The translations under genes and the position numbers were made by a program. From contig JAPWJX010000003.1 of assembly GCA_028283855.1 (NCBI GenBank), positions 248,001-312,000 of the forward strand: a stretch of DNA of 64,000 nt. Reading direction: 5' to 3'. The stretch's first letter is position 1, and the number at the start of each line of letters is the position of its first letter. Positions 4,803-64,000 of the stretch are shown piece by piece. Origin of the DNA: Verrucomicrobium sp. (GTDB lineage Bacteria; Verrucomicrobiota; Verrucomicrobiia; Methylacidiphilales; GAS474). Under the pieces are notes generated by a model. That model searched no databases. It worked only from the letters and a program-made list of their open reading frames with translations, and had not been told where the DNA came from.

Positions 4803-5420
4803 TCATGGCGCGTAATGGAAGATGCGGCCCGTGAGCGGGTCGAGCTGGAGGGTGACGAAGTTGGCGGGCAGGTTCCCCGCCTTGATCGCGGCGTGGGCCA
4901 ACACCAGCGTGAAGAAGGAATTCGTGGCGGTCAGGGAGGCGGGCAGGCCGTCGATGTTGAAAAGGATCGGGATGTAGCGGTAATTGGCGCGGATCACCGG
5001 CAGGAGAAAGGAGCCCGTCTGCGTCTGCTGCTGCAGGAGGGGAGAGGCGGCCGCGTTCGTGCTGACGATCACCGGCTTCGGGAAATAGACCACCTTGTCC
5101 ACCGCGTTCGTCCCCGCATCGGGATCCAGGAGGAAGGTCTGCATCGCCCGGAAAACGGTGGGGGAGCCCGTGTCGTGGGCCTCGTAGGAAGGCAGCTGAT
5201 AAAGGCGCACCTCCACCGGCAGGCGCCGGGCCAGCGCCAGCTGCCGCGCCTGGGTGAACTCGGCCAAAGCCGCCTCCCGCGCGGAGGAGAGGCTGGAGGC
5301 GGAGGAAATCGAATGGAAGGAGGCGGCGCCGATGCCGACCAGGATCGTCATGATCGCCATGACGATGAGAAGCTCCACCAGGGTGAAGCCGCGCGGAGCG
5401 GAAGGAAGGAGCGGCTTCAC
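4803..5420 (-). CDS. Verru_Chthon cassette protein D, pseudopilin-like
   Basis: This 205-residue protein carries a type IV pilin/pseudopilin N-terminus. A short basic leader ends in RG, followed by FTLVELLIVMAIMTILVGIG, with the Glu at position +5 after the predicted prepilin-peptidase cut. I chose the GTG at 5420 because it places the cleavage site about 11 residues from the start. It also overlaps the stop of the upstream cassette A gene as GTGA, indicating translational coupling. The frame stays open to 5741, but that extension is antisense-like sequence inside gene A. The rest looks like a soluble beta-rich pseudopilin domain. It is the last gene of a B-C-A-D operon. The function of the cassette is not established. 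Confidence 0.85.
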   Translation of the reverse strand: MKPLLPSAPRGFTLVELLIVMAIMTILVGIGAASFHSISSASSLSSAREAALAEFTQARQLALARRLPVEVRLYQLPSYEAHDTGSPTVFRAMQTFLLDPDAGTNAVDKVVYFPKPVIVSTNAAASPLLQQQTQTGSFLLPVIRANYRYIPILFNIDGLPASLTATNSFFTLVLAHAAIKAGNLPANFVTLQLDPLTGRIFHYAP

Positions 5421-27250: not shown

Positions 27251-28855
27251 ATGAAGGAGCCGCGCCGCCAAAGCATCCTGCGCGTCGACAACCGGAATGT
27301 GCCGGTCTCCAACCTCGGCAAGATCTTCTACCCCGAAACCGGATTCACGAAGGGCCAGGTCCTCGACTATTACGTCCGCATCGCGCCGGTTCTCCTGCCC
27401 CATCTCCGCAACCGGCCCCTGACGCTCAAGCGGTATCCGAACGGCGTGGCCGCCCCCTTCTTCTACGAAAAGGAGTGCCCCTCCCCCCGCCCCTCCTGGG
27501 TCGGCACCTGCGCGGTGAAGCGCCGCAAGAAGGCGGGAGAGGTCCATTACTGCCTGGCCAACAACCTGCCCACCCTCCTCTGGGCCGCGAATCTCGGCGA
27601 CTTGGAGCTGCACACCTTCCTGGCCACCTGCCGCGACGTGGAACGGCCCACGCAGGTCGTCTTCGACCTCGACCCGGGCGCGCCCGCCGACCTGGTCGAC
27701 TGCGCCGCCGTGGCCCTGCGGCTGCGCGCCCGCTGCGCCGCCCTGGGACTGGAGTGCTTCGCCAAAGTCTCCGGGTCAAAGGGCATCCAGGTTTCCATCC
27801 CGCTCAACACGCCGGCGGCGTATGAAACGACCGCGCCCTTCGCCCGCGCGCTGGCCGAGGCGCTGGTGCGGGAGACGCCGGAAAAGGTCGTCTCCAACAT
27901 GCGGAAGGACCTGCGCAAGGGGAAGGTGCTGGTCGACTGGAGCCAGAACTCGGCCCACAAGACGACGGTCTCCGTCTATTCCCTCCGCGCGAAGGACCGC
28001 CCCTACGTCTCCCTGCCCGTGACGTGGAAGGAGCTGGAGACCTGCGCGCGGACGGGGAAAAAGGCCCCGCTCTTCTTCGAGGCCGATGCCGCGCTGAAGC
28101 GGGTGTCGAAGCTGGGCGACCTCTTCGCCCCCGTCCTCACGCTCAAACAGAAGCTGCCGCGCGGCTGGGAGAAGAAGCTGGCCGCGCCGGCCGAGGAGGC
28201 CCCGGCCCCGAAGCGAAAGAAGCCCGCGCTGAAGGCCTACCGGAAGAAGCGGGACTTCGCCCGGACGGAGGAGCCGGAAAGCGGCGCGCCGAGCCCGCGC
28301 GGGAAGGACCCGCTCTTCGTCATCCAGAAACACGCGGCCTCCCACCTCCACTACGATTTCCGGCTGGAGATGGACGGCGTCCTCAAATCGTGGGCGGTGC
28401 CGAAAGGGCCCCCGACGCAAAAGGGCGTCCAGCGCCTGGCGATGGAGGTGGAGGACCACCCCATGGACTACGCCCGCTTCGAGGGGACGATCCCCCGGGG
28501 CCAATACGGCGGCGGCACGGTGATGGTGTGGGACATCGGCACCTGGCGGCTCTTGGACGGCGGATTGCGGCAGGGGAAGCTCCGCTTCGCCCTCGCGGGA
28601 AAGAAACTGCGGGGAGAGTGGTCTCTGGTCCGCATGCGGCGGGAGGGGGAAAAGCCCGCCTGGCTCCTCCTCAAAAGCGGCGCCGCCGCGCGCGCGATCG
28701 GCGCGAAGGCCGACGCCGCCTCCGCGCTCAGCGGCCGCTCGATGCAGGAGATCGGGGCGAAATCCCGATCCGTCTGGCAAAGCAACCGGGGCGGCGGCGC
28801 GGCGAAAGGCCCCTTCCGCGGCAAGATCCGCGCGCTGCTGGCGCAGCGGAGATAA
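27251..28855 (+). CDS. LigD-like protein: polymerase domain plus 3'-phosphoesterase, no ligase domain
   Basis: This 534-residue protein pairs two LigD modules. Residues 10-300 are an archaeo-eukaryotic-primase-type polymerase domain with the metal-binding FDLDPG (Asp139, Asp141) and SGSKGIQVSIPL. In the latter, Gln180 occupies a position that is His in the well-studied Pseudomonas enzyme. Residues 350-480 are the 3'-phosphoesterase domain, with His361, His367 and Asp369 in IQKHAASHLHYDFRLEMDG and SWAVPKGP. I find no ATP-dependent ligase KxDG core, so this is not a complete LigD. LigD works with Ku in bacterial end joining; no Ku gene is in the window. A separate ligase may be supplied elsewhere (inference). 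Confidence 0.9.
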   Translation: MKEPRRQSILRVDNRNVPVSNLGKIFYPETGFTKGQVLDYYVRIAPVLLPHLRNRPLTLKRYPNGVAAPFFYEKECPSPRPSWVGTCAVKRRKKAGEVHYCLANNLPTLLWAANLGDLELHTFLATCRDVERPTQVVFDLDPGAPADLVDCAAVALRLRARCAALGLECFAKVSGSKGIQVSIPLNTPAAYETTAPFARALAEALVRETPEKVVSNMRKDLRKGKVLVDWSQNSAHKTTVSVYSLRAKDRPYVSLPVTWKELETCARTGKKAPLFFEADAALKRVSKLGDLFAPVLTLKQKLPRGWEKKLAAPAEEAPAPKRKKPALKAYRKKRDFARTEEPESGAPSPRGKDPLFVIQKHAASHLHYDFRLEMDGVLKSWAVPKGPPTQKGVQRLAMEVEDHPMDYARFEGTIPRGQYGGGTVMVWDIGTWRLLDGGLRQGKLRFALAGKKLRGEWSLVRMRREGEKPAWLLLKSGAAARAIGAKADAASALSGRSMQEIGAKSRSVWQSNRGGGAAKGPFRGKIRALLAQRR

Positions 28856-41805: not shown

Positions 41806-44017
41806 TCAGTAGACGATGCGGATGCCGCCCGTGATGCTCTGGGCGGAGTAGTTTTCCTGGCCGATCTGCGCGTCGTAGCGCACGAAGACCAGGGAGCCGC
41901 TGTTGAGAATCATGCTGACGCCGCCGCCGAGCACCGCCGCGTCGCGCGGCAGGCCGCTGGCGTTGACGGTGAAGGCGCCCGTGCCGGGGACGACGAAGGC
42001 CTCGCCGATGGTGTGGGAGGTGTCGAGGCACTCGTGCTGCCAGGAGGCGTCGAGCTGCGGGCGGATGGTCAGGCGGCGCCAGGTGGTGTGGAAATCGTAG
42101 CTGACGCGGCCGCCCAGGTTGGCGACGAAGGAATCGACGCTTTGGGTGCCGATGAGGAGGTTGCTGGCCCCGGCGCCGGTTTCCATATAGGAGCCGATGT
42201 TGATGTGGGTGTATTGGCCGCCCAGGACCGGGCCGTAGGTCAGGTTGCCCGCGTGGAACTTGTAGCCGGTATCGAAGGCAACACCGTATTGGTCGCCGTC
42301 CGGCTTGCCCTGGGCCACGGCGTTGGTGATGGGCACGGCGCGGGTGACGGTACCGACGTTGAAGCCGTAGTAGCCCCGGCCGTTGATGTACCAATCGCCC
42401 CGGGTGTAGCTGCCGTAGGGGCCGAAACGGTAGTTGTTCATCGCCAGGCGGCTGCCCAGGGAGTCGAGATCGGCCGTGGTCCGGCCGTAACCGCCCAGGA
42501 AGCCGATCGTCCATTCCTTGCTCAGGCGGTAGTCGGTGCCCACGGTGAAGTCGACCGTGGTGGTGTCGACCGCGTTCTGGGTGGCGGTGGCCGACTGGCT
42601 GGCCAGGATGGCGTTGCCGGTGACGAAGGTGCCCCAGCGGCGCAGGAGCGGGTCGTCCCCGCCCACCTGGTCGGGCGTGTCGGTCATGGTCGCCGTGTCG
42701 GATTGCATGGCGGGATTGAAGGCGTAGAGCTGGCCGGAGAGCTGGGAGAGGCCGGGGTTGTCCGCGTCGACCAGGCTCATGCCGCTCCAGTCCATGCCGC
42801 CGGTCAGGCCGCTGCGGATCGCCTCCAGGCGGTTGTCGAGGAGGACCCCCTCGAAGACCAAGTCGCTGAGGACCTGATGGTTGATGGTGTTGACCATCGT
42901 CTGGATCTGGGAATTGTTCCCCAGGTTTCCGGAAGAGGGAACGGCGTTGAAGTCGCCGCCCGCGCCGTTGAAGTTCTCGTAGGTGTAGGAGACGCCGTTA
43001 ATGACCAGGGTGCCGCTGTTCGGATGGGCTTCCAGGTAGGCATTGGCCGCCGCGGCGTCATAAGCGGAGATGCTTAGGTTGAGGTGCAGGTAGGAATATT
43101 GCGCCGTCTCGCCCACAGCAAGGGAGGTATTGCCGTCGATGATGCCGTTGATGGTGGGGAAGCCGCTCAGGGTGATGTTCACCACCGTGGTGCTGGAGCC
43201 GCCCGCGCCGATGGCGATGCCGCCCGGGGCGTTGATGTTGCCGCTGTTCGTGATGGTGACCGAGCCGGTGGAGGAGGCGTAAATGCCGTAGAGGCTGCCG
43301 CTGCCGGAGACGTCGATATTTCCGGAATTATTGATGCTGATCGACCCGCCGCTGGAGGAGGAGGCGTAGATGCCGTAGGCGGATGAGCCGCGGCTGGCCA
43401 CGGTGATGTTCGCCTGGTTGATCAGGTCGATGTTGCCCGCCACCGTCCGGGCGGAAAGGCCGACGGCGGAGCCCCCGCCGGAAGCGCCGCTATGGCCCAC
43501 GGCGACGTCTCCCGCGTTCGACACGGAGATGTCCCCGGAACCCGCGGTCTGCGCGTCGAGGCCGTAGAGGGAAACGGCGGCCGCGCTGGTGTCGTCGGCG
43601 GAAAGGTCGCCCGCGTTGACCACGCTGACCAGGGCGCTGCCCAGGCTCTGGTAGGTCCGGATGGCCGCCGCCCCCCCGCCGCCGCCGGTGGCGGTCACGG
43701 AACCCTGATTGGTCACGGTCACTCCGCCCGTGCCGGCGTTCTCCGCATCGACGCCGGTGGCCCGGGCGCCGGTGCTTTGGACGTTCACCTGGCCGGTGTT
43801 GTAGACGAAGGCCGCGCTGGCGCTGGAGGCGCTGCCTTCCACCGCGTGGATGCCGAAGGCGTTGGAGGAACCGATGCCGGTCACCGAGCCCGCGTTGCTC
43901 ACCGTGACGCCGCCCTGGCCGGAGTTGACCGCGTCGAGCACGGCCGTGTTCGTGCCGGAAAGGGAGCTGAGCGCGCCGGTGTTGCTCACCGTGACGGCGG
44001 CGGTGGAAGCGGCGTCG
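41806..44017 (-). CDS. Giant autotransporter: C-terminal passenger end and beta-barrel
   Basis: This is the 3' part of the autotransporter gene after the frameshift near 44,017. Its first 250 or so residues continue the beta-helix repeats (NTGALSS, VTVSNAGSV, GIYASS) seen in the frame upstream. A linker follows, then a 12-strand-type autotransporter beta-barrel beginning near LLRRWGTFVTGNAILA, containing WTIGFLGGYGRTTADLDSLG, and ending in RIVY. The C-terminal aromatic residue is the usual outer-membrane assembly signal. The passenger is expected to be exported through this barrel. The reading frame alone starts at 43989, but the true start is beyond the right edge of the window. Confidence 0.85.
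42950..43190 (-). repeat. Pre-barrel linker, copy 2 (adjacent to barrel)
   Basis: It encodes TINGIIDGNTSLAV, YLHLNLS, AYLEAHPNSGTLVING and SYTYENF. It matches the segment at 58320-58560 position by position and directly precedes the beta-barrel here. Confidence 0.75.
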
Positions 44018-47000
44018 CAGCTCGTAGGCGCGGATGGCGGTGCCGCCGCCGGAAACCGCCGCGAGGTTCGTCACCCCGACGCCCGACGCCCCGGCGTTTT
44101 CCACGTCGAGGCCGATGCCGTTGAGGCCCCCGGCGGAGACCGCGCCGGCATTGGTGAGGGTCAGGACGTTCAGGTTGTTCGTGTTGGCCTGGACGTCGCG
44201 GATGCCGATGCCGTTGGTCCCGGTGACGGAGACGGTCCCGGAGTTGACGATGTTCTGCAGGCCGGTGCCGTCGTTCTCCACCCAAAGGCCGACGCTGGCG
44301 CCCAAGGTGTCGGAAACGGTGATGCTGGCGGTGTTGGTGACGGAGACGTCGGCCGTAGAAGAGGCGTTGGCCTCCACGGCGCGGATGCCCGCGCTGCCCC
44401 CGCCGCCTCCCGCCACGGTGATGGAATTGGTATTGAGGACGACCACCCCGCCGGTGCCGGTGGTGCTGGCGTCGATGCCGGTGGCGGTGCCCGCCGCGTC
44501 GACGGCCCGGACGGCCCCGTAATTGGTCAGGGTGACGGTGTTGGTGTTGGCCGCGTTGGTCACCGCGGCCAGGATGCCGGTGGCGCCGCCGCCGCCGCCG
44601 TTGGCGGTCACGCTGTTCGTGTTAAAGATGTTGAGGATGCCCGTCCCCGCCGTTTCGGAGTCGATGCCCATAGCCTTGCCGCTGCTGTTGTTGGCCACGA
44701 TGACGCCGGTGTTCGTCACGTCGACAGGGTTTACGCCGGAGATATAGATGCCGTAGGTGTTCGTCCCGTTGATGGTGATGGAGCCGCTGGACTGGACCTG
44801 GGCGTCTTCCGGGCTGGCCACGTAGATGCCGTAGGCGCCGTCGCCGGTGGAGTTGATGGTGCCGCTGTTGGTCAGGGTGACGACGCCGTTGGCGTAGGCC
44901 GCGATGCCGACGGCGCCCGCGCCGCTGTCGGTGATGTTGCCGCTGTTGACGATGGCCACGTCGCCCGCGCCCATGTTCGTGACGCTGATGCCCGCGGCGG
45001 TGCCGGAACCGCTCTCCACCGCGCTGATGTTTCCGCTGTTGGTCACGACGATGTTGGCCGTGCTGGAGGCGTTGGTGTTCTGGATCTGGATGCCGATGGC
45101 GCCGCCGGAGCCGTTGTCGGTCAGGTTGATGCTGCCGGAGTTGCTCACGGCCAGGTTGCTCCCGCCGAACAAGTCGGAGGTGGAGACCAGGATGCCGTGG
45201 GAGATATTGGTGCCGCCCGCCGTGCCCGCCAGATACATGGCGCCGCTGTTGGTCAGGTTGATCGCCCCGTTGCCGCTGGCGTAGATGCCGTTGGCGCCGT
45301 TGCCGCTGATGGCGCTGGCGGCGGTGCCGAGGGAGCCGGTGTTGAGAATGTCGATCTCGCCGCTGCCGGCATTGACGGCGTAGATGCCGTAAGCGGCGCC
45401 GCCGCCGGTGTCCCGGGCGATCAAGGTGGCCGTGTTCGTGACGACGACCGCGGCGGTCGAGGTTCCGTTGGCCTCCACGGCCTGGATGGCGTAGGCGCCC
45501 TGGCCGGAGGCGATGGCGGTGACCGCCCCGGCGTTGCTCACCGTCACGCCGGAGGTGTCGGCGTTGAAGGCGTTGATGCCGGAGGAGGTGCCGCCGCCGG
45601 TGTTTGTCACGCCGATGGTGCCGGTATTCGTCACGGTATCGCCGCCCGCCCCGTTGTTGTAGGCGAAGATGCCGAAGTTGGTGGTGGCGCCGGTGGAGAC
45701 GGCCTGGATGGTCCCCCCGTTGAAGACCGCGACGCCGCCGCTGCCGCTGTTCTGGGCGTTGATGGCCTGCCCGTAACCGCCGCTGATGTTGATGGAGCCG
45801 CGATTGCTCACCACCACCATGCCGGCGCCGCCGACGTTGAAGGCCTGGATGCCGAATCCGCCACCGCCGCCCAGGCCGATGTTGGTCACGCTTAGCGCGC
45901 CGCCGTTCTCGACGTCGACGCCGCCGCCGCCCGAGTTGACCGCGTCGATGCCCAAATAATCGCCGACGTCGATCGTGGCCCCGGTCGCATTGGTCACGCT
46001 TACCAGCCCGGTGCCGGAAGTGCTGTTGTTGTGCGCCTTGATGCCGGTGACGCTGTAGCCATTGGCGGTGAGGGCCCCGCGATTGACAACCGTCACGGCG
46101 CCCGCGCCGGTCCCCTCGGCGTCGAGGCCGATGGAGTTCCCGCCGTAGAGGCCGGCGGTCTTGGAGACGACCACCGTCCCGGCATTGGTCAGGAAGACTC
46201 CGCCGGTGCCGTTATTGATCGCCTGCATGCCGTAAGAAGCGGCGATGGCGCCGGAAAGGAATCCGGCATCGGCCGTGATCGTGCCCGCATTGCTTAGGCT
46301 GATGAGGTCGGTGCCGCCGCTGTTGGTGGCATAAAGGCCTGTGACGCCCGCGCCGCCGGTGACGGCGGAGACGTTGTTGGTCAGGGAAATCGTGCCCAGA
46401 TTGGTCAGAAGGACCCCGCCCGTTCCGGCCGTGACGGCCTTCACGCCGTAGCTTTGGCTGACGGCGTTGACGGAGTCGACCCCCAGGGTCTGCGTGTTGG
46501 TGAAGGAAATCTGGTTCGTGTTGAGGGCGTTGTTCAGAGCCAGGAGAATGTCGGTGCCGCCGCCGATGGTGTTGGTGCCGCTGCCGATCGCCTGGATGGA
46601 GATGTTCTGGGTGTTCGCCACCAGGACCCGGCCCAGGCCGCTTTGCTGGGCGGAGAGGGCGGTCATGTATTGGGTCGAGTCGATATTGGGCAGATTCGTC
46701 ACCCCCGCCAGGATGGTGCCGGTGTTGCTGACGGAAACGTCGGCGGTGGCCGCGCCGTTCTGCTCCGCCGCCTGGATGCCGTAGGAACCGTAGACGGAAA
46801 GCACGCCGCCGTTGGAGACGGTCACGCCGCCCGTTCCCCCGTTAAGCGCCTGGATGCCGACGCCGCTCCCCGCCGAGGCGACGGTGTTGGTCCCCGTGTT
46901 GGTCACCTGGACGGCGCCCGTCCCGCGCGCATTGATGGCCACCATGCCGGAGGCCTGGCCGCTGCCGAAATTGCTGGTGAGGAGGTTGCCGCTATTGAGA

Positions 47001-50000
47001 AGGGTCACGCCGCCGTCGCTGGCGTTGCTCGCATACATGCCCCATCCGTCACGGGAGGTGACGCTGCCCGCGTTGGTTACGGAAATGAGGCCAGCGCCGT
47101 TCGCGTTGTAGAGATTGACCGCCGAAATACCGCGGGAGTATTGCGCGTCCGCGAGGATGGTGCCGGAGGCCCCGTTATAGACGGAAATCGCGCCGGTGCC
47201 GTTATTAAGGATGCCGATGCCGTCCATGCCGAGCGTGCCGACCGGGCTCGATCCGGTTATCGTCAGCGTGATGGCGCCGGTGTTGCTCACCGTGATCGCG
47301 CCGCCGCCGGAGTGGATAATTCCGATCGCCGCATCGTCGACGGCCGAGGCTCCGGCGGCCGCCGTGCTCTGGGCGAAGACGGTTCCGGCGTTGCTCACCG
47401 TGATCGCGCCGGTGGCGCCCGCGGCGTTGGTCCCTTCCAGGTAGATGCCGAAGACGGCTCCCGTGTTGGTCCCCGTGGGGGTGATCGCGTTCTGGTTGGT
47501 GACGTTGATGCTGCCCGTGTTCAGGATGGAGGAGCCGCCCGTGCCCGAGTTGGTCGCGTAAAGGCCGTAGCCCGCCGCCGTCCCGTTCACCTCCAGGGCG
47601 TTCAGCGCGGCGGTATTGGTGAAAGCCAGCTGATTGGCGTTGGCCGCGTTGGTCTGCGCCAGGCGCACCGCGCTGGCGCTGCTGGCGTTGGTCGACGCCG
47701 TGTTGCTGCTGGAGACGGAGATGTTCGTCGTCGTCACGCTCATGAGGCCGGTGCCCAGGCTGGAAGCGTCGATGCCGATGGCCGTGCCGTTGGCGGCGCT
47801 GACGGTGAGGGAGCCGGGATTGCTGACGGTCAGGGTGGTGGCGCCCGCCGCCCCCAGCTGGGCCAGGAGGCCGGTGGCCGATTGGCCGCGCGCGGTGATG
47901 CTGGAAGCGCCCCCGCCCAGAACGGCCAGGGAAGAGGCGCTGCGGGCGTTGATGCCGTAGGTCTGGGCGGCGTTGTTGGTGACGGAAATCGAGCCGAGGT
48001 TGGTGACGGTTTCCGCCCCGGCGCCGTAGTTGATCGCCTGGATTCCGTAGGAGACGCTGGTGTTTTGCGCCGAGCCGATGAGCGAGCCGTTGTTAAGGAC
48101 CACCAGGCCGCCTGAGGCGTTGTTGGTCAGGTTCACGACATCGGCCGCGCCCGAGGTGACGGAGACCGTCCCGTCATTGGTAAAGAGCAGCGATCCCGTT
48201 CCGGCTCCGTTGACACCGACGATGCCGAATCCGCCGCCACCGGCGAAGGGAACGAGGTTGATGGTGTTCCCGTTATAGAGAACGACTCCGCCGCCTCCGC
48301 CGTTGTTCGCGTAAATTCCGTAGCTGTCCCCCACGGTGATGGTGCCGGTGTTGGAAACGGTGAGAAGGGACGTGCCGCCCGTGCTGCGCGCCAAAATGCC
48401 GTAATCGCTCGTGGCGCTCACCGTCAGGGTCCCGGAATTGAGAACCGAGATGGGGCCGGATCCGGTCTCCGCGTCGATGCCGATGGAGCCCGATCCGGAG
48501 TAGCCCGCCAGGTAGCCGACCGCCACCGAGCCGGCGTTGGTCACGGAAACGCCGCCGGTGCCGCTATTGAGCGCCTGGATGCCATACTCCGCATTCGTGA
48601 ACGCGGTGTTCTGGCTCATCACGCTGACCGTCCCGCCGTTGCTGATGGAGATGGCGCCCGCGCCTGCGCGATTCGTCGCATAGATGCCTGTCATGCCGCC
48701 ATTGGCCGCCAGGGTGGAGACGTTCGTCAGGGTGACCGCGCCGGTATTGGTCATGGCCACGCCGCCCGACCCCAGATTGACCAGGGCGATGCCGTAGGCC
48801 CCCACGCTGGAATTGGTTTCCAGGATGGAAACGTTGTTCGTGTTGGAGAAGGAGATCGAATTGGTATTCGCCGCGTTGTTGAGGGCGATGCGGATGCCCG
48901 TGGCCGCATTGGTGCTGATCGCGGAAGCCGAGAGGCTCTGCACGGTAACGTCGGCGGAATTCATAAGGGTGGCGCCGCCCAGGCCGTTGTTCTCCACGTC
49001 GAGGCCGTAGGCGTAGCCGCCGTTGGTGTCGTAGGAGAGGATCGTGCCGTAGTTGGTCAGGACGGCGGCGCCGGTCGCGGCCGTCGATCCGTTCTGGGCC
49101 AGGATGCCGTAAGCGCCTCCGCCGCTGCCTTCGGCGGTGATGCTGTTGGTGTTGTAGACGTTGACGGGACCGTTGCCGGTCGTCGTGGCGGCGATGCCCA
49201 TGGCGACGCCTCCGGGGTCCTTGGCCACGATGACGCCGGTATTGGTGACGGTGACCGGATTGACCCCCGACACGTAGATGCCATAGGTGTTCGTGCCGTT
49301 GATGGTCAGATCCCCGGTGGAGTAGATGTTGGCGCTCTGCGGGCTGGCGACGTAGATGCCGTAGGCGCCGTTGCCGGTGGAGTCGATGTCTCCGGTGTTG
49401 CTGATGACCACGGTGCCGTTGACGTAAGCGGCGATGCCGCGGGCGTTGACGCCGGTATCGACGATGTGCCCGCTGTTCTGGATGGTGACGGTGCCGCTGC
49501 CCAGATTGGTGACGGTGATGCCCGCGGCCGTGCCGGTGCCGGAAGCCGTCGCGGTGATGTCGCCGCTGTTGCTGACGGTGATGCTGGCGGTGCTGCTGGT
49601 GTTGGAGTTGCGGGCCAGGATACCGGCGGCTCCCGCAGTGCCGGTGCTGCTCGCGCTGATATTCGCCCCGTTTGTCAGGAAGATGGCGCCGCCGCCGGCG
49701 GTGTCCGCGGTGGTGAGGGAGATGCCGTAGGCGATGGCCGTGCCGGTGGAGGTGTTCTGGACGTAGATGTCCGCCAGGTTGGTCGTGGTGATCGCCCCGT
49801 TGCCGCTGGCGTAGATGGCCGCGCCGCCGTTGCCCGCGATGGCGTTGGTGGCGGAGCCCAGGGCGCCGCTGTTGGTGATGTTGATCGCGCCGGTGCCGAG
49901 GTTTGCGGCGTAGATGCCGTAGGCAGCGCCGCCGTTGGTGTCGCGGGCGGAGAGGGCCCCGGTGTTTTGGATCGTCACGGCGCTCGTGGCCATCGTGTTG

Positions 50001-53000
50001 CTCTGCACGGCGGCGATGGCCCACGCTCCCCCGCCGCTGCCGGCGGCGGTGATCGCGGCGGTGTTCGTCACCGTCACGGCGCCCAAGCCCAGGCTGACGG
50101 CGTCGATGCCGTAGGCCAGGGAGCCGCTCACCGTGATGCCGCCGTCATTGAAGACGTTCTCCGCGCCCGCCCCGCGGTTGGAGGCGTAGACGCCGAAGAC
50201 GTTGCCAGCGCTGGTGGCGACGCCGCTGGTGATGGCCGCCGCATTGGTGACCAAGACGCCGCCGCTGCCATAATTCTCCGCGTCGATGCCGTAGGTGGTG
50301 CCCGCCCCGTTGGCATGGTTTAGCGTGATGGCCCCCAGGTTGGTGACCGTCACTAGTCCCGTGGTCCCCGCCAGGGTGTCCAGGGCCCGGATACCCATGG
50401 TGCTGTAGGGGCTCCCGATCGTTTGAATGGTATTGGTATTGAGCACCACGACCCCGCCGCTGCCGGCGTTTTGCGCGTCGATGTCCGGCGAGGCGATATT
50501 GCCGCCGAGGACGGAAATGGTCCCGTAGTTGGTGACGCTGACCAATCCCGTGGCGTTCGTGTTGGTGTTGTAGGCGCGGATGGCCCCCTCGCCGCCGCCG
50601 CCGCCCGCGACGGCAAGCGTGCCGTCATTCCGCACGGTGAGGGAGCCGGTGCCTGCCGAGGTGGCGGTGATGGATAGGGAGTAGATGCCGGTATTGCTGA
50701 TCGAGCCGCTATTGTAGATTGAAAGCGCGGCGGCGTTGTTCGTGTTCGATTCCGTAAGATAGATGCCGAAGCCGCCCGCTCCCTGGGCGGAAGCCAAGGC
50801 CCAGGCGTTGATGACGCCGGTGTTGCTGATGGAGACGGCGCCGAGCCCGGAGTCGGCGGCGCTGATGCCGTACGCCGTCTCGTAGTTGGTCGTCACGCCG
50901 GCCTGGGAAAGCTGCCGCACGTCGATCGTCCCACCATTGCTGACGAAGAGGCCCGCGGAGCCCCCGCCGTTGGTAACGGCGATGCCGGTGAGGGCGTTGG
51001 TGCCGGTGGTGTTGGCCGTTTGGACATTGGTCGCGGCGATGGTGGAGCCGTTGACGACCGACGTGCCGCCCGTGCCCGCGTTGGAGAGATAGAGGCCGTA
51101 GCCCGCCAGGGTCGCGTTGGTTTCCAGGACGGAATAGGCCAAGGTATTCGTGTAGGCCAGGGCGTTGGCGTTGGCGGCGTTCGACTGGACAAGCTTGATG
51201 CCGGTGGCGCCGCCGCCGATGGAGGTGACGGAGAAGGCGCTGGCCGGATCCCGGTAGAGGAAGAGGCTGCCGGTGCCCGCCGTCTCCAGGTCGTAGCCGA
51301 CGGCGGCGCCGCCCTGGGTCTCCGTCACGTTCACGGTGCCCAGGTTGGTCACCACCACGTTGCCGGTGGAAGCCGCGGCGGTTTGCCGCGCCCGGATGCC
51401 GGTGGCCCCGCCGCCGCCCGCCACGACGGTGACCGTAGTGCCCACCCCGTTGGTGACGGCAATCAGGCCGCTGGTCCCCGTGCCGGTGGCGTCCAGGCCG
51501 ATGGCGTAGCCGGTGATGCCGGTCGTGGTTTGGTTGAGGGCGCTGACGGTGCTGTTGTTGACCAAGGTGATCGCCCCGCCGCTGAGGACGGAGATGCCGT
51601 TCAAGCCCGCGCTGGAAGCAAGCAGGGTCTCCGTATTGGTGGCTGTGACGGAGTTGTTGTTGGCCAGGCTGACGCCGCCCGTCCCGTCGTTCTCCAGCTG
51701 GAGGCCGTAGCCGGTGCCGACGGCGTTGGTCTCCAGGACGGTGACCACGTAGCCGTTGGTGAGGGAGAGAAGGTTGGCGTTGGCTGTGTTTCCCTGGATG
51801 AGGCGGATGCCGACGGCTCCTTGCGCGCCGCCGGAGCTGCTGGAGCTGCTCACCGCGGTGACGTTGTTGCTGTTGGCCAGCACGACCCGGCCCAGGCCGT
51901 TGTTCTCCGCGTCGATGCCGATGGCCAAGCCCCCATTGAGGTGGCTGGCGAGAATCGAGCCCGTGTTGGAGACGACGACGTCGTTCGTGCTGGCGTTGCC
52001 GTAGAGGATGGCCTGGATGCCCAGGGAGCCGACGGCCGATCCCCCGCTGGCCACCGCGCTGATGGCCCCGGTGTTGTAGACGACGATGCCGCCGGTGCCC
52101 TGGCTCTTGGCCACGATGCCCGCCGCGCCGCGGTCGTCGCCGGAAGCGCCGCTGGAAAGAGCGCCGATGTTGTAGACGTTCACGCCGCCGGTGCCGGAGT
52201 TTTCCGCGTCTAGCGAGGTGCTGTAGCCGCCCACGTTTCCGGTGTTGGTCAGGTCGACCAGGCCGGTCGCGCCCGTGCCGGTGTCGAAGGCCTGGATGCC
52301 GGTGCCGAAGTGGTTCACCGCCGTGTTGGTGATCGTGTTTTGGTTCAGGACGGCGACACCGCCGGTTCCCGCGTTGCGGGCGTCGATGCCGATGCGGGTG
52401 GTGTTCCCCAGGTTGCCGGTGATGACGCCGGTGTTCGTCACGCTGACCAGGCCGGTGGTTCCCGTGCCGGTGTCGTACGCCCGGATGTTGACGCTGGTGT
52501 CGCCCTGCGTGGCGGTCAGCGCGCCGGTGTTGTAGACGCTCACGCCGCCGGTGCCGGCGTTCTGGGCGTCGATATTGGCCGTGGTGCCGCCCGCGCCGAC
52601 GGGGGCGGTTATGGTGGCGGTGATGGTCCCGGTATTGCTGACGCCGACCATGCCGACGCCGGCGGTGTCCGTGTTATAGGCGCGGATGCCGGAAACCACC
52701 TCGCTGGAGCCGGACGCGCCGACGCCCGCCACGGTGATGGTGGTGGAGCTGGTGACCGTCACGGCCCCGGCGCCGGTGTTCTGCGCGTCGATGCCGACGG
52801 CCCCGGCGATGTTGGTGGAGGCCGTCTCCTGGCTGGTGACGGTGATGATGTCGTTGTTCTGCACCTCCACCGCCCCGGCGCCGCCGCCCTGGGCGTGGAT
52901 GCCGTAGAGCGTGCCGCCCGCGTTTTGCTGCTGGTTAAGGACGTTGGTGACCACGATGCCGCTGTTGTTCACCAGCGAAACGCTGCCGCTGCCCAGGGTG

Positions 53001-56000
53001 CTGGCGGAGATGCCGTAGCTGGTGGAAATCGCATTGGTCAGGATCAGGGTGATCGGGTTGTTGTTGGTGAAGCTCAGGCTGTTGGTGTTGGCCGCGTTGT
53101 TCTCCGCCAGCCGGATGCCGATGGCCCCGCCGACGCTGCCCGCGCCCGCCGCCGTGCTGGTGACGGTAAGCGGGTTGGTATTGACCACGGTGACGGCGCC
53201 GAGGCCGGTGGTCTGGGCGTCGATGCCCACCGCCACGCCGCCATTGGTGTCCTTGACCTGAAGGGTGCCGTAGTTGGTGACGCCCACGGCTCCGTCGCCC
53301 AGCGCCCGCATGCCGACCGCGCCGCCGCCGGAACCGCTGGCGATAATAGAGCCGGTGGCGCTGTTCACCACGTTGATGTCGCCCGTGCCGGCGTTCGTCA
53401 CGTCGATGGCCGCCACCGCGCCGCCCGCGGTGTGGCGGACGCTGACCGTGCCGGCGTTAAAGACCGTCACCGCTCCGTCTCCCTGGCTGTTTGCGTAGAT
53501 GCCGTTGAGGGAGGAGGCGCCGCCGAAGTTGGTGATGCCAGAGACCTGAATGGACTGGCCCGCCAGGTTGACGACGGTGATGCCTCCGTCGCCGTAATTT
53601 TCCGCGTCGATGCCGGTAGTGTTGGCCGGATCGAGGTTGGGATTGGGCTGGCTCGCGTCGGAGGAGGCGCCGGCGGTCAGGGTGATGTTCCCCCCGTTGG
53701 TGACCAGGACGAGGCCGGTGGCACCCGCGCCGGTATTTACCGCCTCGATGCCGATGGCCCACTGCGGCGTGCCGTTGGTGGTGGTGATCGAGTTGAGATT
53801 GACCACCGTCACGCCGCCGGTGCCGGCGTTTTCCGCGTCGATGCCGACGGCCAAGCCCTGGGCGTGGCCCCCGATCAGAATGGATCCCGTGTTGCTGACC
53901 TGGACGAGGCCGGTCGCCCCCGTCGCGGCGCTGATGGCCCGGATGGCGGTGGTGGTGATGCTCCAGTCGGACTCGGTGGCGCCCGATCCGTAGACGGCGA
54001 TGGAGCCGGTGTTGTTCACCGTGACGGCGCCGGTGCCCGCGTTTTTCACGTCGACGCCGACGTTCGTGGCGATGGTGCCGGAGAAATAAAGGTCCGGGAT
54101 GGTGACCACGGTGATGGCTCCCGTGTTCTCCACCAGCACGTTGCCGGCGGCGCCGCTGTTCGTCGCCGCCAAGCCGATGAGGCTGTTGCTGGGAGAGACC
54201 GTGTTCGGGACCGGTATTTCCAGATAGTTTGTCAGGGTAATGGTGCCGTTGTTGGAGAGGGAAATGCCCGCGGATCCCCCATTCTCAGCCGTGATGCCGT
54301 AGCTGCGGCCGACGGAATTGGTCTCCATCACGGCAACGGAGTTGCCATTGGTGAAGGTGAGCTGGTTGAGATTGTTCGTGTTGCTCTGCACGATCCGGAC
54401 GCCCGTGGCCCCCAGGGCGATGTCGTTGGTGAGGGTGGGGGCGCTGACCACGCTGATGGAGCTGGTGTTGAGGACGGCGGTGAGGCCGGTGCCCGCGTTC
54501 TCCGCGTCGATGCCGTAGGCCGCGCCGCCGTTGGTGTCGCCCGCGACGATGCTGCCGCTATTGGTGACGGTGACGGGACCGGTGCCGTTTGTGTTGGTGG
54601 CCAAGGCCAGGATGCCGAAGCCGCCGCCGCCGCCCCCCATGACGCTGATTCCGTTCGTGTTCAGGACGTCGACGCCGCCGGTGCCCGCGTTCTCCGCGTC
54701 GATGCCGTAGGCGGCCAGGCCGGGATCGTCGACGGTGACGGTGCCGTAGTTGGTGACGTCGACCAACGCGGACGAGTTGGCGTTGAGGAGGAGCGCCCGC
54801 AGGCCGACGGCGCCCTGGCCCTTCACGGCGATGAGGCCGTTGTTCCAGACGCTCACGCCGCCGAGGCCGGAATTCTCCGCGTCGATGCCGTAGCCCGCGC
54901 CGATCAGGTTATTCGTGGTGGCCAGGTCGGCGACGACGACCGAGCCCGTGTTGCTGACGGAGACGCCGCCCGCCCCGGCGCCGTTCGTCGCGTAGAGGCC
55001 GGCCAGGGAGCCGTTGGTGCTCAGGATGGAGGAGACGTTGGTCGCGTCGATCGATCCGGTGTTGGTGAGGGAGACGCCCGCTCCGCCCGCGTTGAGGGCC
55101 TCGATGCCGTAGCTGGCGGTGGTGCCGTTGGTCTCCAGCAGAGTGATGCTGCCGTCCGTGGTCAGGGTGAGCGTGCCGGTGTTGGAGGGATTGCTCAGGA
55201 TGGCCCGGATGCCGATCGCCCCGGGAGTGCTGTTGGTGGCGTTGCTCACGGTGGCCGTGACGTTAATGGGACCCGTGAAGGCCAGGCCCAGGGAGCCGAG
55301 GCCGTCGTGCCGCGCGTCGATGCCGATGACCGCGCCGCTGTTGGTGTCGGTGACGCTGATGCTCCCTTCGTTGGTGATGTTCAGGGCTCCGGTGCTGGTG
55401 GCGGAGGAGATGTAGGCCTTGATGCCGATGTTGCTGCCGCCGCCGGACCCGGCGATCGCGATGTTGGCCAGGGGGCCGTTGCTCACCGTGATGCCGCCGT
55501 TACCGCTTTGCTCGGCATCGATGCCCTGGGCGAAGCCCGCGCTGTCGTTGATCGTGATCGCGCCGCCGTTGGTGATGGCGATGGCGCCCGTGCCGCCGTT
55601 GAACGCGTAGATGCCGACCAGCTGGTTGGTGCCGTAATCGAAGGTGCCGCCGCTGGCGGTGAGCGTGATGTCCCGTCCGGCCTGGTTAAGGACGGTGACG
55701 CCGCCGGAGCCGGCGTTCTCCGCGTCGATGCCCGCGGTGGAGGCCGGATTGCTGCCGCCCGCCGGATTGGCGACGAGGCCGAGGCCCGCGACGTCCAGCG
55801 TGATGGCGCCGTCATTGGTCACGCTGACCGCGCCCACGGCGTTGGTGTTCCGGTTCACCGCGTCGATGCCGAAGGCCCAGACGCCGGAGTAGATGCCGAA
55901 GGAGTTGGTGGTGCCGGTGTTGGTGATGGCGCCCGAATTGAGGATGGAGATCCCGCCCAGGCCGTTGTTCTCCGCCAGGATGCCGGTGGCGACGCCGCCG

Positions 56001-59000
56001 CCGCTGATGGTCAGCTGCGCGCCGTTGGTCACACTGATCGAGTTGGAGGCCGTTTGGGAGCTGTTCACCGCCAGGATGCCGACGGTCTCGTAATTCCAGC
56101 TGCCCGCCCCGGGTCCCACCACCAGCGTCTCCACCGTGCCGCTGTTTTGGATGAGGAGGTCGCCCACGCCGTTGTTCGAAGCGCCCAGGCCCAGGGCCTC
56201 GCCCGGCGTGTTGAAATAGGCCGTGCCGTTCAAGGTGGCGACGATTGAGCCGGTGTTGCTGATCGTCACCCCGCCGCTGTTTGCCCCGTTGGAGGCAAAA
56301 ATGCCGTAGACGGTGCCGACCGAGCCGCTGGCCAGCACGTCGGAGATGTTGATCGTCCCGCCGTTGACGACCGCGATGGCGCCGGTGCCCTGGTTGTTCA
56401 GGCGCAGGCCGTAGTTGTCGGCGAAGGCGTTGGTGAGGTTCATCGTCAACGCGCCCTGGTTGGTCAGGGTCAGGTCGTTGGCGTTGTTCGTGTTGTTGAG
56501 GGCCAGATTCAGGCCGATGGAGGAACCGCCGATGCCGCCGTCGGTCCCGCCGGAGGTCAGGGTGATCGGGGCGGTCGTGTCGACGCTCACGCCGCCCAAG
56601 CCGTCATTCTGGGCGTCGATGCCCAGGACGGCCGCGCCTTTCCCGCCGCTCACGTTGAGCGCGCCGGTGTTGCCCACGTCGACGGAAGCCAGGCCGTTGG
56701 TTCCCGCCTCGATGGCCACGATGCCGGTGGCGGTGCCGCCGTTGGGACCGGCGATGTTCATGGTATTCGAATTGCGGACGATGATTCCTCCCCCTCCTTG
56801 ATTGGTGGCGTTGATGCCGGCAAAGAAGCCGCCCAGGCTGGAAGAGGTGCCGAGCACGCCGGTATTGGTGACCGTGACCGCCCCCGTCCCGTTGGTGTTG
56901 GCGTTGATTGCCTGGAGGACGATCGCCGAGCCCTGGGACGACCTGGCCGAAACGGAGGCCGTATTGGAAATGGAGACCCCGCCGGTTCCGTCGTTCTCCG
57001 CGATGATTCCGTAGGCGTTGCCAAGCGTCGTAGCCAGAACGACGCCGGCATTGGTGACGGCGACGTCGCCGCTCGTGTTCGTCCCGGAAACAATCGCCCG
57101 GATGCCGACGGCCTGCGCCGAGGCCGCATTGCCGCTCGCGGTGATGCCGCCGGAGTTGCGAACGAGGACGGAATCCTCGCCCGCCCCGTTGGCGTCGATG
57201 CCGAAGGCCGTCAGCGGCGTGCCCAGGCCGGAGACGCCGGTGGCGGTCGCCACCAGGGCACCGCCGTTTTCCACGTCGATCGCGCCGGCGCCATTGGTGT
57301 CGGTATGGTAGGCGCGCAGGGCCACGGCGTCATAATTCGCGTTGGTCCCGCCGGAGACGCTGTTGGTCGCGGTGATTGCGCCGCTGTTTTGGATGGTGAT
57401 GAGGCCGGTGGCCGCGCTGGCCGCGTAGATGCCGTAAGCGAGGCCGCCCTGCTGGTTGTCCGTGGCGGTGAAGTTCGCGCTGTTGGAGATCGTCACCGTC
57501 GCCGTGCTCGCGTTGTTCGTGTTGTAGGCCGCCAGGCCGATGGCGCCGGCGCCGTTGCCGCGGACGTAAAGCTGGCCGTCGTTGCGGACGAGCACGTCGC
57601 CCGTTCCGGAAAGGTCGCCCGTCGTCGCGGAGATGCCATAGCTGGTAAGCGTGGTGCCGAAGTCCTGGCTGACGTAGATCGAGCCCGCCGCCTGGTTCTC
57701 CACGGTGACCGCGCCCTGGCCGGAGACGACGATGGCCCCGGTTCCCTGCCCCTGGATGGCGGAGTTGCTGCTTCCGATGACGCCCGCGTTGACCACGGAA
57801 ATGGCACCGGTCCCGGCCTCCGCCCCGATGCCGTAGGCGGTGCCGACGCGGCTGTCGATGAAGAGGGAGCCCGTGTTGGTGATCGTGATGTTGCCGCTGC
57901 CGTAGGTGCCGTTGGTCGAGAGGGTCGATGCGTGGATGGCGCTCTTCCCTGCGCCCTGGTTGAGGGCGCTGATCGTGCCCGCGTTGGAGATGGAGATGTC
58001 GCCGTTGCCGGTGGAAAGGCCGAAGGCCCGGATGCCGTCCGCGTTGGCGTTGTCGATGTTGATGCCCGCCGTGGCCGCCACGGTGATCGTCGTGTTGTGG
58101 TCGCTCGCGTTGGCGATCGCGCCGGAATCGGTCCCCTGCGGCGCCTCGACGACGGTGGCCGTGCCGACGAGGGCGAAGTTGGTCGTGCTGCCGTCGGCGG
58201 CGCCGCGCACGGCGTCGATCTCCCCGGTATTGGTGATGTTGGTCGTCACGCCCGCGCCGTTGGTGACGATTTCCGGGTCGTAGCCGACGGCGTTCGACCA
58301 TTGGTTGGTGTCGAGCTGGAGGAGCTTGGCGTCGGTGAAGTTCTCGTAGTTGTAGGTCTTGCCGTTGACGATGAGGCTGCCGTTGTTCGGATTGGCGGCC
58401 AGGTAGGCCTGCGCGGCGACGGTGTCCGCGTAGCTCAGGCCCAGGAGGCGCAGGTAAAGATGGGAGTCGTCCGGGTTCACGGCGGAGTAGTTGCCGTTGA
58501 TCATCCCGCCGATCGTCGGGGAGGAGCCGCCCACCGTGACGGAGATCGCCAGGCTGGAAGAACCGCCGACGTAGATGGCGTAGCCGCTGCCGCCCACGTT
58601 GATGTCCCCGCTGACGTTGATCGTGATGGAGCCGGTCGGCGTGCTGGCGTAGATGCCATAGTTCTGGCCCGACCCGCCGGAAATGCTCATGCCGCCGACG
58701 TGGGCGATGGAGGTGATGCTGATGTCCGAGTTGCCCACCGCGTAGATGCCGTAGTTGTTCCCCGAGCCGCTGCCCACCACCGTGACGCCGCCGCTGTTGT
58801 TCACGTTCACCGCCCCCGAGCCGAGGTTTTCCGCCCAGATGGCCGCGGCGGCGCCACCGTTGGTGTCCCGCGCGGTCAGGCCGGAGGCGTTGATCAGGTC
58901 GATGTCGGCGGAGGAGGCGGCGTTGTTTTCCAGCAGATGGATGTCATAGGCACCGCCGCCGCCGCCCTGGACGTTCATTCCCGCGTAGAGCTTGCCGTTG

Positions 59001-62000
59001 AGGGCGCCCAGGCCGTCCGTCTCCAGGTTGACGCCGTAGGCCACGCCGCTCAGCGCGGTCACGTTGAAGCTGTCCGCGTTGGTGATGCTGGCGACGGCGG
59101 TGGAGAGCGCGTTGTGGATGATCGTGTTGATGCCCGTGGCGTTGGCGCCCGTGACGGTGATGCTGGTGGCGCCGCCGCCGCCCGCGGCGTCGCCCGTGCC
59201 CCAGGACTGGACGTCGATGCCGACGGCGTCGCCCCCGTGGGTGTCGGAAACGTTCAGCGCGCCCGTGCCGAGCGTCACGGTGACCGTGTTGGTGCTCGCC
59301 GCGTTGGTGTTCCAGGCCTGGATGCCGATGGCCCCGGCCCCGGCGCCGACGACGGTGGTCCGGCCCGCGTCCTGCACGCTGATGTTGCCGTTGGGGGAGT
59401 AGACGGCGATGCCGTACCCCGTCTCCGTTCCCGTTCCGGAAAGCTGCACGTTGATAAAGCCGGTGTTCTGGTTGATGAGGGAGATGTTTCCCTGGCTGTT
59501 GATGAGGATGCCGCCGCCGTCCTGGGCGTTGACGGTGACCACGTTCGTCGTGATGAGGCTGACCGACCCGCTGCTGGCGTTTTGGATCTCCACCCCCACG
59601 GCGGAGGCGCCCGCGGCGTTGACGGTCAACGCGTTGTTGTCCGAGTAGGTGATCGCACCCATGTTGGTGGCGGTGGAGGTGGAGGTGTTGTTGATCAAGA
59701 CGCCGCGCGTGCCGTCGCCGCCGGTGACGGACATCGCGTTGGTGAATTGGAGGGTGACGCTGCCGAGGCCCGCGTTCTCCACATCGTAGATCACCGCCCG
59801 GCCGCTGGTGGCCACCACGTTGAGGCCGCCCCAGCCCATGTTGATGCCGTTGGTGGAGCTGGCATTGGAAATGGTGGCCAAGGCGCCCGTCGCCGTGGCC
59901 CCCTGGATGGTGCCGCCGCCGGTGTTTTGCAGGGAGATGGCGCCCAGGCCGTCGGTCTCCGCGGCGACCCCGACGACGGCGCCGCTGCCGCTCACATTCA
60001 AGGTGGCTCCGTTGCTCAGGATAACCGTCCCCGCCGAGGCCGCGTTGGTCACCGCCGCCAGGATGCCGGTCACGTCAGTCCCGCTGGCGTTGACCGTGCC
60101 GTAAGACTGCACCGTCACGTTGCCCGTGCCCGCGGAAACGGCGGAGATGCCCAGGGCGGTGCCGCCGGAGGTGCCCGCGGCGCTGACCGTCCCGAAGTTG
60201 GTGACGATCAGGTTTCCCGCCCCCGACTGGAAACCGGAAATGCCCGTGGCCAGCCCGCCCGCCGAGGCGGCCGTGACGGTGCTGAAGTTCTTCAGGGCCA
60301 GATCCCCGCTGCCGTCGCCAGCGCCCTCTATGCCCGTGGCCGGACCGCTGCCGGTCTCGATCGCGTTAATGGTTCCCTGGTTGCTCACCGTCACCCCGTT
60401 GGTCGTGCCGCCCGAATTGGTCGCCAGGACGCCGACGGCGCCGCCGCCGTTGGCCGAATTGGTGACGGAAATCGCGTTCGTATTGAGCACGGCGACCAAG
60501 GCGCCGCCGGAAGAGGAGGCGGCGACGCCGGTCAATCGGCTGCCGCTGCCGGTCACGTCGATGGTGCCGAAGTTGGTCACAAAAACCTGCCCCAACGCGT
60601 TGCCGCTCTGGGCCACGACGCCCGCCGCCATTCCCGTGCCGGAGGCGTTCACCGTCAGGGCGGCCCCGTTGGTGTTGAGAACCCGCACGCCGCCCTGGGC
60701 CAGCGTCTCCGCGTCGATGGCCGCCGCCGCCGTGCTTTGGCCGCCCCACGTATTGGAAGAGGAACCGCTCGTGACGGCGGTGACGAAGACCGAGCCGGAG
60801 TTGCTCACCGTGGCCAGATACGCGGCGGGGCCGGAGTTGGTGGAAAGATTGTAGGCGGCGATGCCGACCGTGGCGTCGGCGCCGCTGTTGGTGACCTGGC
60901 CGGAGTTGGTGATGTCGACCAGGCCGGAGCCGAGGGTGGAACCGCCGATGCCCAGGGTGGCGCCGCTGCCGGCGGTGCTTCCGTTCACCGAGCCGGTGTT
61001 CAGGATGATGATCCCGTCGGCCCCCGCGGCGTTCGTGTTCGCGGCGACAAGGCCCGCCGCGCCCGCGCTGGAGGAGGCGGCCCCCTGGACGGTGACCGAG
61101 CCCTGGTTGGTAATGCGGGAGGCGCCGCCGGTCGCCGCGTCGGCGGTCAGGGCCAGGACGCCATAGGTTGTGTTGGTGTCGCCGGACTGGCTGGAAACAT
61201 TGATTGAGCCGCCCGCCAAGTTGGTGACGGTGACGCCGACCCGGCCGGAGGCCAGGACGCCGAGGCTGCGCGTGCCGGAAATGGCGTTGCTGGAGGTGCC
61301 GATCTGGCCGCCGTTGATGACCGTCACGATGTCATTGGCCAGGTTGGTGGCCACGACGCCGATCGCCTGGCCGCCGGACGCGTCGACGGCCTCGATCGAG
61401 CCGCCGTTGGTGACGAGGACCGAGCCCGTCGCCCCCGATTCCGAGGCGGTGATGCCGAAGGCCCCGTTGCCGGCGCCCGTGGCGGCGATCGATCCGGTGT
61501 TGCTGACCTGGACGGAGCCGGTCGTGGCCGTCGCCCCGATGCCTGTGCCGGATTGCGTGCCGGTGACGGTGATCGTCCCGGAGTTACTCACGCTCGTCGC
61601 GCCCGCCCCGGCATTGTCCGCCTGGATGCCGGTGGCCGTGCCGCCCGTGCTGGCAATCGCGCCCGAGTTGGTGACGGAAACCGCGTTCGTGCTGAGGCTG
61701 GCGGCGGAATAGGCCTTGAGGCCCGTCGCCTGCACGCCGGAAACCGTCACGCCGCTGGTGTTCAGGAGCACGACGGCCCCGTTGCCCAATCCCTGGGCGT
61801 CGACGCCCAGGGCGGCGCCCGCGCTGCTCGTGGCGGCAACGGCGCCCCGGTTGGAAAGAGTGACGGTGCCGGTGCCGTAAACTTCCGCCTGGAGGCCTTC
61901 CACCTGGTTGGTGCCGGTGGCGGATACGGTGCCGGTATTGGTAAGGAGGACCGCGTCGCCCCCCGCCGCGTTCGTGTTCAGGGCGGAGATGCCGTAGGCC

Positions 62001-64000
62001 TGCAGGCCGATGGCGCTGATCGTCCCGGCGTTGGAAACCTGCAGCGGCCCCGCCACCAAGGTGTCCGCGGTCACGGCGGAAATGCCGTAGGCGGTGCCAC
62101 TGCTGCCGGCGCGGTTCTGCGCGTAGATGGAGCCGGCGGCGCGGTTGACGATGGTCATCGCGGAAGGCCCGGTGGCCAGGATGCCGTAACTATTCGTGCC
62201 CGTGATCGCGTTGGTGGCGGTGCCAAGCGCGCCCGCGTTGGTGACGAGGATGTTCCCCGCGCTGCTGATGGCGTTGAGGCCGATGGCCGCGCCGTTGGTG
62301 GAATAGGCGGCGATGGTGCCGACGTTGGAGAGCGTCACCGTGCCCGCGCTGACCGTCACGCCGGTGGAGGTCCCCTTGACGCCGATCGCCATGTTCCCCG
62401 CTCCGGCGGCTTGCGCGGTGATCGAGTTGGAGTTGATAAGAAGGAGCGGATTGTTTCCGGAAACCTGACCGGCGATGCCTGCCGCCTGGCCGCCGGAAGC
62501 CGTCACGACAAGGCTGCCGCCGTTGACCGCCAGAACCTGGGTGCCGGAAGAGGTGTTGGTGTCCTGCGCCAAGATGCCGGTGGCCGCGGTGCCGACCACC
62601 GTCACGCTGCCGGTGTTGGAGGCCGTCAGCGTCCCAGTCCCCCCCTGCACCGCACGCAGGCCGTAGACCACGGCCGTCCCAAAGCCGCTGGTGTCCGTGA
62701 CGGAAAGGGTGCCGGCATTGGAAAGCAGAAGCGCGCCGCCTCCCGTCGCCACGCCGTAGAGGCCGGTGGCGCCCGCCAGGCTGGCGGTCAGGGTGAGGGA
62801 GCCGGTGTTCAAGAGGCGGACGCCGCCGTTCCCGTCATTTTCGCCGTAGATGCCGATCCCGGCGTTGCCGTTGCTGTTCGTGTCGAGGGCGGTGATGGTG
62901 CCCGCGTTGGTCACGGAGAGGAGCCCGGTGGTGCCGCTGTGGCTGTTCACCGCGCGGATGGCCTGGTAGCCGGCGCCCGTGCCGGTGACGGAAAGCGCCC
63001 CCGCGTTGGTAATCTGCACGGCGCTGCCGCCCAAGGTGTCGGTCGTCACCGCCTGGATGCCGTACGCGACGGTGCTGCTGCTGCCGTTACTGACTACAAT
63101 GCTGCCGGCGGCCTGGTTTTCCACCGTGAGCGCGCCGTGGCCGCTGAGGTTGATGGCCGTCTCCCCCACTCCCTGGATCGGATTGGCCAGCGTCCCGATG
63201 GAGCCCCCGTTGCGCACGGTGAGGGCGCCGGTGCCGCTGCTCTGTACGTCGACGCCATAGGCGTAGCGCGTCGTGCTCAGGGAAAGGAGCGCACCGTTAT
63301 TGACGATGGTGACCGCGCCGGTGCCTGCCGTGTTCGTGTTCTGGACGGAGATGGCGGTGGCGGTTCCGCCCGGGGTGCTGTCGACCACGGAGACGATGCC
63401 GTTGTTGGTGATCTGGACGGCGCTGCCCGCCGCGCTTTCCGCCGTGACGGCGTGGATGCCGTAGGCGGCGTTCGTCGCCCCGGTGCGGTTCCGGACATAG
63501 ACGGAGGAACCCGCCAGGGTGCTGATGTTGATCGCCCCGGCGCCGATCGCCTCGATGCCGGTCGAGCCGTTGCCGGAGATCGTTTGCCCGAGGCTGCCGA
63601 TCGCCCCGCCGTTGACCAGATTGAGCGTCCCCGCGCCGCCCCGGGCGCTCATGCCGACGGCCGTTCCCGCAGCGGTCGCCACGTAGATCGATCCTGTGTT
63701 GGAAAGGGTGACCACGCCCGCGCCGTAAGCGCCGTTGGTGTTGAGGGTCGTCCCCTCGACGCCGAAGACGGAGGCCGTCCCGTTCGTAATAAAAATGGTG
63801 CCCGCATTGGAAATGGCGATGTTCCCCGTGCCGTAAGTCAGGCCGGTGGCGATGATGCCGCTCTCCGCGCCACTCATGTCGATCGTCGTCCCCGCCGCCG
63901 TGGTGATGGTGGTATTCAGATCGCTGGCGTTGAAGATGCCCGCGTTGTAGGGGGACGCGGGCGTGGCGGTGATCGTGGCGGTCCCCACCAGGGAGATCGT
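44017..64000 (-). CDS. Giant autotransporter: N-terminal passenger (open at right edge)
   Basis: About 6,660 residues of an adhesin-like passenger, entirely made of degenerate beta-helix coils with the theme GIxAxNxGTGxVxVxNxGxI. The frame is open to the last base, so the signal peptide and start lie outside. Asn, Gly, Thr, Val and Ala dominate, with almost no Cys or Lys. That composition suits a long right-handed parallel beta-helix, and at one coil per roughly 20-25 residues it would extend over 100 nm (inference). An in-frame copy of the linker normally placed before the barrel sits near 58.3-58.6 kb. Likely role: surface attachment or shielding. The frame ends in shadow sequence at 43490; the true continuation is the other frame. 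Confidence 0.85.
44150..56500 (-). repeat. Intermediate cassette repeat (about 1.1-1.3 kb) inside the passenger
   Basis: A recognisable block with the pattern NNxANTNxLxFTN, then ExN, then YGI, recurs near 56470, 55180, 54365, 53085, 51775, 51160, 48855, 47630, 46510 and 44165. Many gaps are near 1.2 kb or twice that. Each block is followed by GxGGVSLxNxGxI and a Thr/Asn-rich stretch. This is a larger unit of duplication above the individual beta-helix coils. Confidence 0.7.
58320..58560 (-). repeat. Pre-barrel linker, copy 1 (internal, without a barrel)
   Basis: It encodes TIGGMINGNYSAVN, HLYLRLLGLS, AYLAANPNNGSLIVNG and KTYNYENF. It aligns with the linker at 42950-43190 but is followed by a new passenger module beginning ALVGTATVVEAPQGTD rather than by a barrel. 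Confidence 0.75.

Follow-up and report, generated by a model that had tools for sequence, protein, structure and literature searches.

Probable giant classical autotransporter with two tandem passengers, and two giant paralogues, in a Methylacidiphilales-order bacterium

We have identified in the genome of a bacterium of the order Methylacidiphilales (Verrucomicrobiota) a gene, here called gene P, which very probably encodes a giant classical (type Va) autotransporter with a β-helix passenger and a C-terminal β-barrel. Its passenger region consists of two complete passengers arranged head to tail, and two giant paralogues of the same genome, Q and R, contain one and three such units, respectively. 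In the assembly, the passenger and the barrel of gene P lie in two different reading frames.

The window, i.e., the whole stretch of 64,000 nucleotides that was analysed, corresponds to C3:248001-312000 in a genome of 2.56 Mb, which is distributed over nine contigs and is 95.6% complete. The features of gene P and the positions of both paralogues are compiled in Table 1. The three genes together occupy 83.3 kb, or 3.3% of the genome, and an investment of this size in three giants hints that some surface structure is strongly needed. Two further loci of the window were noted: a 1,274-aa open frame on the minus strand (5417-9241), a putative gene without a Pfam match up to an E value of 0.1, and a protein with LigD primase-polymerase and phosphoesterase domains (27251-28855).

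Table 1 Features of gene P and its paralogues. Positions are those of the window unless the contig (C3) is given
Feature	Position	Strand	Remarks
Autotransporter β-barrel domain PF03797	41872..42618	minus	167 bits, cut-off 26; C-terminus of gene P
Second reading frame, gene P	41806..44070	minus	last passenger coils, pre-barrel domain, β-barrel, stop codon
True pre-barrel C-terminal domain	42949..43200	minus	TINGIIDGN...YLHLNL...SGTLVINGVSYTYENF
Passenger reading frame, gene P	43490..64000 in window; stop-to-stop 43490-64267	minus	6,836 aa in window, 6,925 codons total
Frame lesion, gene P	43990..44040	minus	coil sequence moves from passenger frame to barrel frame
Longest internal DNA duplication, copy 1	49097..50288	minus	1,207 columns, 69% identical to copy 2
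Longest internal DNA duplication, copy 2	44567..45764	minus	1,207 columns, 69% identical to copy 1
Block B, seven strong copies	region 45101..63643	minus	NAISGxGxxGIxASGxGAITVxNxAxGSIYV...AYGIxAxTAD; 64-79 bits; high-coordinate ends 63643, 63244, 62269, 61333, 57820, 49909, 45376
Block A, nine strong copies	region 46358..56524	minus	NNxANTNxLxFTN...ETN...YG; 34-78 bits; high-coordinate ends 56524, 55222, 54412, 53128, 51823, 51214, 48910, 47683, 46561
Segment common to gene P and paralogue Q	49908..51209	minus	75% DNA identity, 1,308 columns
Internal N-terminal cap, start of unit 2	57899..58303	minus	94 bits, best shuffled 5.5
Internal copy of pre-barrel C-terminal domain, end of unit 1	58328..58564	minus	56 bits, best shuffled 5.8
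True N-terminal cap	63719..64000 in window, continues to 64126	minus	
Signal-peptide-like stretch, gene P	just outside window, at N-terminal start	minus	by eye: charged then hydrophobic RKIALFSCVGVFFAFLGLTPSFAA
Paralogue R	C3:406081-433517	minus	~9,140 codons in all; made of three passenger units; a single frame break at about 412.5 kb
Paralogue Q	C3:842317-875742	plus	one intact frame, 11,142 codons including barrel, one passenger unit, ~33 kb

The barrel of gene P scores well above the cut-off of the PF03797 model and is 76% and 60% identical to the barrels of the two paralogues. None of the Pfam and NCBIfam passenger models matched the passenger. A structure model covering 413 of its roughly 7,000 residues, derived from four sequences of the window, is all β (pLDDT 92.7, pTM 0.93) and has about 31 residues per turn, the same as the median coil spacing of 31 residues along the passenger. 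Foldseek did not match this model significantly to any PDB entry (best E value 0.34); a second-look aligner superimposed it on the Vag8 passenger with a Z of 32.0 over 338 residues, and on pertactin and UpaB with Z values of 26.1 and 24.3, respectively, which identifies the fold as the usual autotransporter β-helix. Extrapolated from this segment, the entire passenger is predicted to be a right-handed β-helix of ~7,000 residues with ~31 residues per turn. The earlier sequence-only reading of this DNA had rightly recognised a giant autotransporter and a long minus-strand passenger with coils of the theme GIxAxNxGTGxVxVxNxGxI, but its coil period of 20-25 residues was too short.

The tandem organisation of gene P is evident from models of the N-terminal cap and of the pre-barrel C-terminal domain, both built from the true termini only of genes P, Q and R. 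Across the three giants, these models detected exactly three internal N-caps (94-106 bits; best shuffled score 5.5) and three internal C-domains (56-68 bits; best shuffled score 5.8), and each internal C-domain adjoins a cap, always in the order C then N. From this pairing, P is made of two complete passengers head to tail, R of three and Q of one. When all six caps and all six C-domains were used to search the whole genome, the same six of each were recovered and no further copy. In both units of P, block B first begins 161 residues past the start of the cap (cap at residue 48 and block at 209 in unit 1, cap at 1989 and block at 2150 in unit 2). The junction between the units could be modelled only with low confidence (pLDDT 57.8).

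The second unit could stem from two adjacent autotransporter genes that fused, the barrel of the first being lost, instead of from intragenic duplication, and we consider such an origin quite possible, for the junction passes exactly from a C-terminal domain through a short linker to an N-cap, with neither signal peptide nor barrel, and the internal termini share only ~50% identity with the true ones. On the other hand, units and paralogues constitute one family, within which a fusion of tandem duplicates and an internal duplication would leave nearly the same trace, and trees of the short caps and C-domains are mostly unresolved.

The passenger frame of gene P overshoots the edge of the window by no more than 267 bp, and the passenger coils continue in the barrel frame beyond a lesion (Table 1); a scan of GC content by codon position likewise places the frame switch near 44.0 kb of the window. 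Summed over both frames the gene comprises ~7,480 codons, as two open frames in the assembly and not one. The sequence-only reading had given the protein more than 7,300 residues within the window, a figure that needs a jump between frames, and had described it as still open; its feature start at 43190 cuts the gene, the barrel frame of which ends at 41806, and both the break ahead of the barrel and the two giant paralogues escaped it. Paralogue Q has no counterpart of the break. Paralogue R is composed of frames of 7,009 and 2,395 codons that meet at a break running in the opposite direction to that of P. Since the break separates passenger from barrel, the copy of gene P as assembled could not anchor its passenger. 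The lesion may be either a sequencing error or a real mutation.

Were the mutation real, gene P might be a decaying pseudogene, its giant passenger no longer displayed in this strain. We regard this as possible but somewhat doubtful. The placement of passenger and barrel in different frames by a change that is not at a homopolymer run agrees with decay, as does the separate break in R; so does the intragenic duplicate of P, in which pN is about equal to pS (0.31 versus 0.30), although the strong GC3 bias may lower pS. Decay would, however, erode a frame such as the 6,925 stop-free codons of the passenger, Q is intact across 33 kb, and isolated indels are common residual assembly errors; moreover, the segment shared by P and Q, unlike the intragenic duplicate, has a pN of 0.18 versus a pS of 0.44. 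Programmed frameshifting, by which passenger and barrel would be joined to give free and anchored forms, appears highly improbable: the coil sequence does run on, with no large visible loss, where the frame changes in P and in R, but the opposite directions of the two shifts argue against one programmed mechanism, no slippery heptamer was seen by eye at the site in P, and Q, the longest paralogue, needs none.

Repetition within the passenger was analysed with models of two block types, A and B, trained only on paralogue Q and then searched against gene P (best shuffled scores 7.4 and 5.4 bits, respectively). Block B was recovered at all seven positions listed for it by the sequence-only reading. 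Block A had been said to recur every 1.2 kb; its nine strong copies are present, but they are limited to 46.4-56.5 kb of the window, and 1.2 kb is only the modal spacing. Between successive copies, spacings of 1302, 810, 1284, 1305, 609, 2304, 1227 and 1122 nt were found, five of the eight falling between 1.12 and 1.31 kb within a full range of 0.6 to 2.3 kb. Outside the ~70-residue block itself, the segments resemble one another, on average, barely more than random coils do (mean score of 266 versus 230, sd 58), and only two inter-A-block pairs (residues 5120/5903 and 2582/3286) score above the 99th percentile of the random-offset controls. A strict 1.2-kb cassette was rejected, as the ungapped lag identity has no strong peak near 400 residues and most of the stretches that separate the A blocks are out of register; a regular cassette of this length is at best a weak and partial description of gene P. 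Tandem Repeats Finder reported short weak arrays only.

Other traces support in part the growth by successive internal duplications that had been proposed for this gene, namely the 1.2-kb DNA duplicate, the segments shared out of order with Q (the common segment in Table 1 sits at a non-corresponding place there) and the whole-passenger tandems, whereas the regular cassette adds little to it. Of the three nested levels of repetition described earlier, the coils and both blocks are real, and the largest level, whole passengers in tandem, had been overlooked. The notion that the repeats are false copies from assembly expansion, which the earlier reading raised and the protein-level repetitiveness of P invites, can be dismissed on the divergence of the copies. 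These are old and diverged, with only 69% identity in the longest duplicated segment, whereas copies created by the assembler would hardly differ. The sequence contains no N, and exact repeats do not exceed 36 nt in P (Q, 30 nt; R, 29 nt; all three genes together, 37 nt), a length that reads longer than ~40 nt resolve.

In our reconstruction, gene P would have grown at more than one scale: by coils, by the shuffling and duplication of segments several hundred residues long, and by a whole second passenger, added from its N-cap to its pre-barrel domain and without a barrel of its own. As a classical autotransporter, its precursor would be exported by the Sec pathway by virtue of the signal-peptide-like start, in which RKIALFSCVGVFFAFLGLTPSFAA resembles, by eye, RKIALFSVGAAFLSLGDVGFAA of paralogue R; both are candidate signal peptides. 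No ATG was found beside this stretch in gene P, the nearest candidate start being a TTG. The barrel would be inserted into the membrane by BamA. The host genome encodes one Omp85/BamA-type protein (PF01103, 217.7 bits) for the BAM machinery, and a TamB-family protein was sought in this genome and not found. The passenger is expected to cross the barrel C-terminus first and to fold outside the cell into a rod of ~110 nm, which may function as a surface adhesin or an aggregation fibre.

A bolder and, in our estimate, rather unlikely proposal is that the giants are concatenated autotransporters, in which each inner unit retains a pre-barrel domain that may act as a folding nucleus, and one barrel exports several complete passengers in stages, every unit pulling out the next as it folds outside the cell. 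If true, barrel loss and unit concatenation would amount to a separate way of building giant surface fibres. The genome offers a natural series of one, two and three passengers per barrel, with barrels of the same type, which would allow one to ask what the maximal passenger size per barrel is, and whether the internal pre-barrel domains assist folding while the passenger is being exported.

A β-helix rises by 0.48 nm per turn. With 31 residues per turn, the passengers of P, R and Q would extend to ~110, 135 and 165 nm, respectively. The fibre of exceptional length anticipated for gene P by the sequence-only reading thus loses its distinction beside the ~260 nm reported for AtaA (PMC13082670).

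Relatives of gene P were sought among 388 genomes of the phylum and 62 of the order. The N-cap had no match in any other genome among the 388, and the pre-barrel domain matched weakly in one other genome of the 62. A scan of genome contigs with a single barrel sequence as query found no relative; the search with the barrel alignment returned 20 loci, with ordinary-sized barrel frames of at most 2,328 codons. The weak match belongs to a Candidatus Methylacidiphilales MAG (G015, contig C38), which encodes a 1,049-aa autotransporter with NxG coils, the pre-barrel domain (35.5 bits) and a PF03797-type barrel as in P, but is of ordinary size, with a single passenger and a barrel that is only ~34% identical. 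Autotransporter frames among the phylum matches listed are mostly of 300-3,600 codons, and the sole other giant among them is a 7,032-codon frame in G136 (C3:176465-197560 of that genome). It is of the same class and similar in size to P, and ends in a C-terminal PF03797 barrel; unlike P, it has a different passenger sequence and no P-family N-cap, and it is an independent giant. It would seem that ancestors of ordinary size gave rise to the P/Q/R family by expansion within this lineage.

A literature search yielded no papers on autotransporters of Methylacidiphilales. Gene P shares the β-helix passenger fold and the PF03797 barrel with type Va proteins such as Vag8, pertactin, UpaB and Fap2, which are far smaller. 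Whole-passenger concatenation that includes the pre-barrel domains, in genes of one, two and three units from the same genome, was not seen described within the limited open-access literature covered. Giant nested autotransporters as such are already known from the precedent of BigE, a β-proteobacterial protein of 10,429 residues that was called the largest known in 2012 and contains a 309-residue passenger segment repeated eight times along with eight 69-residue repeats (Celik et al. 2012, PMC3419190). Judged by its published description, BigE is like P in being a giant classical autotransporter with replicated passenger segments and inner repeats. The outer repeated unit in the present family, however, spans 1,900-5,500 residues, including an N-cap and a pre-barrel domain, versus 309 residues in BigE, and paralogue Q, with its 11,142 codons in one intact frame, is slightly longer than BigE itself.
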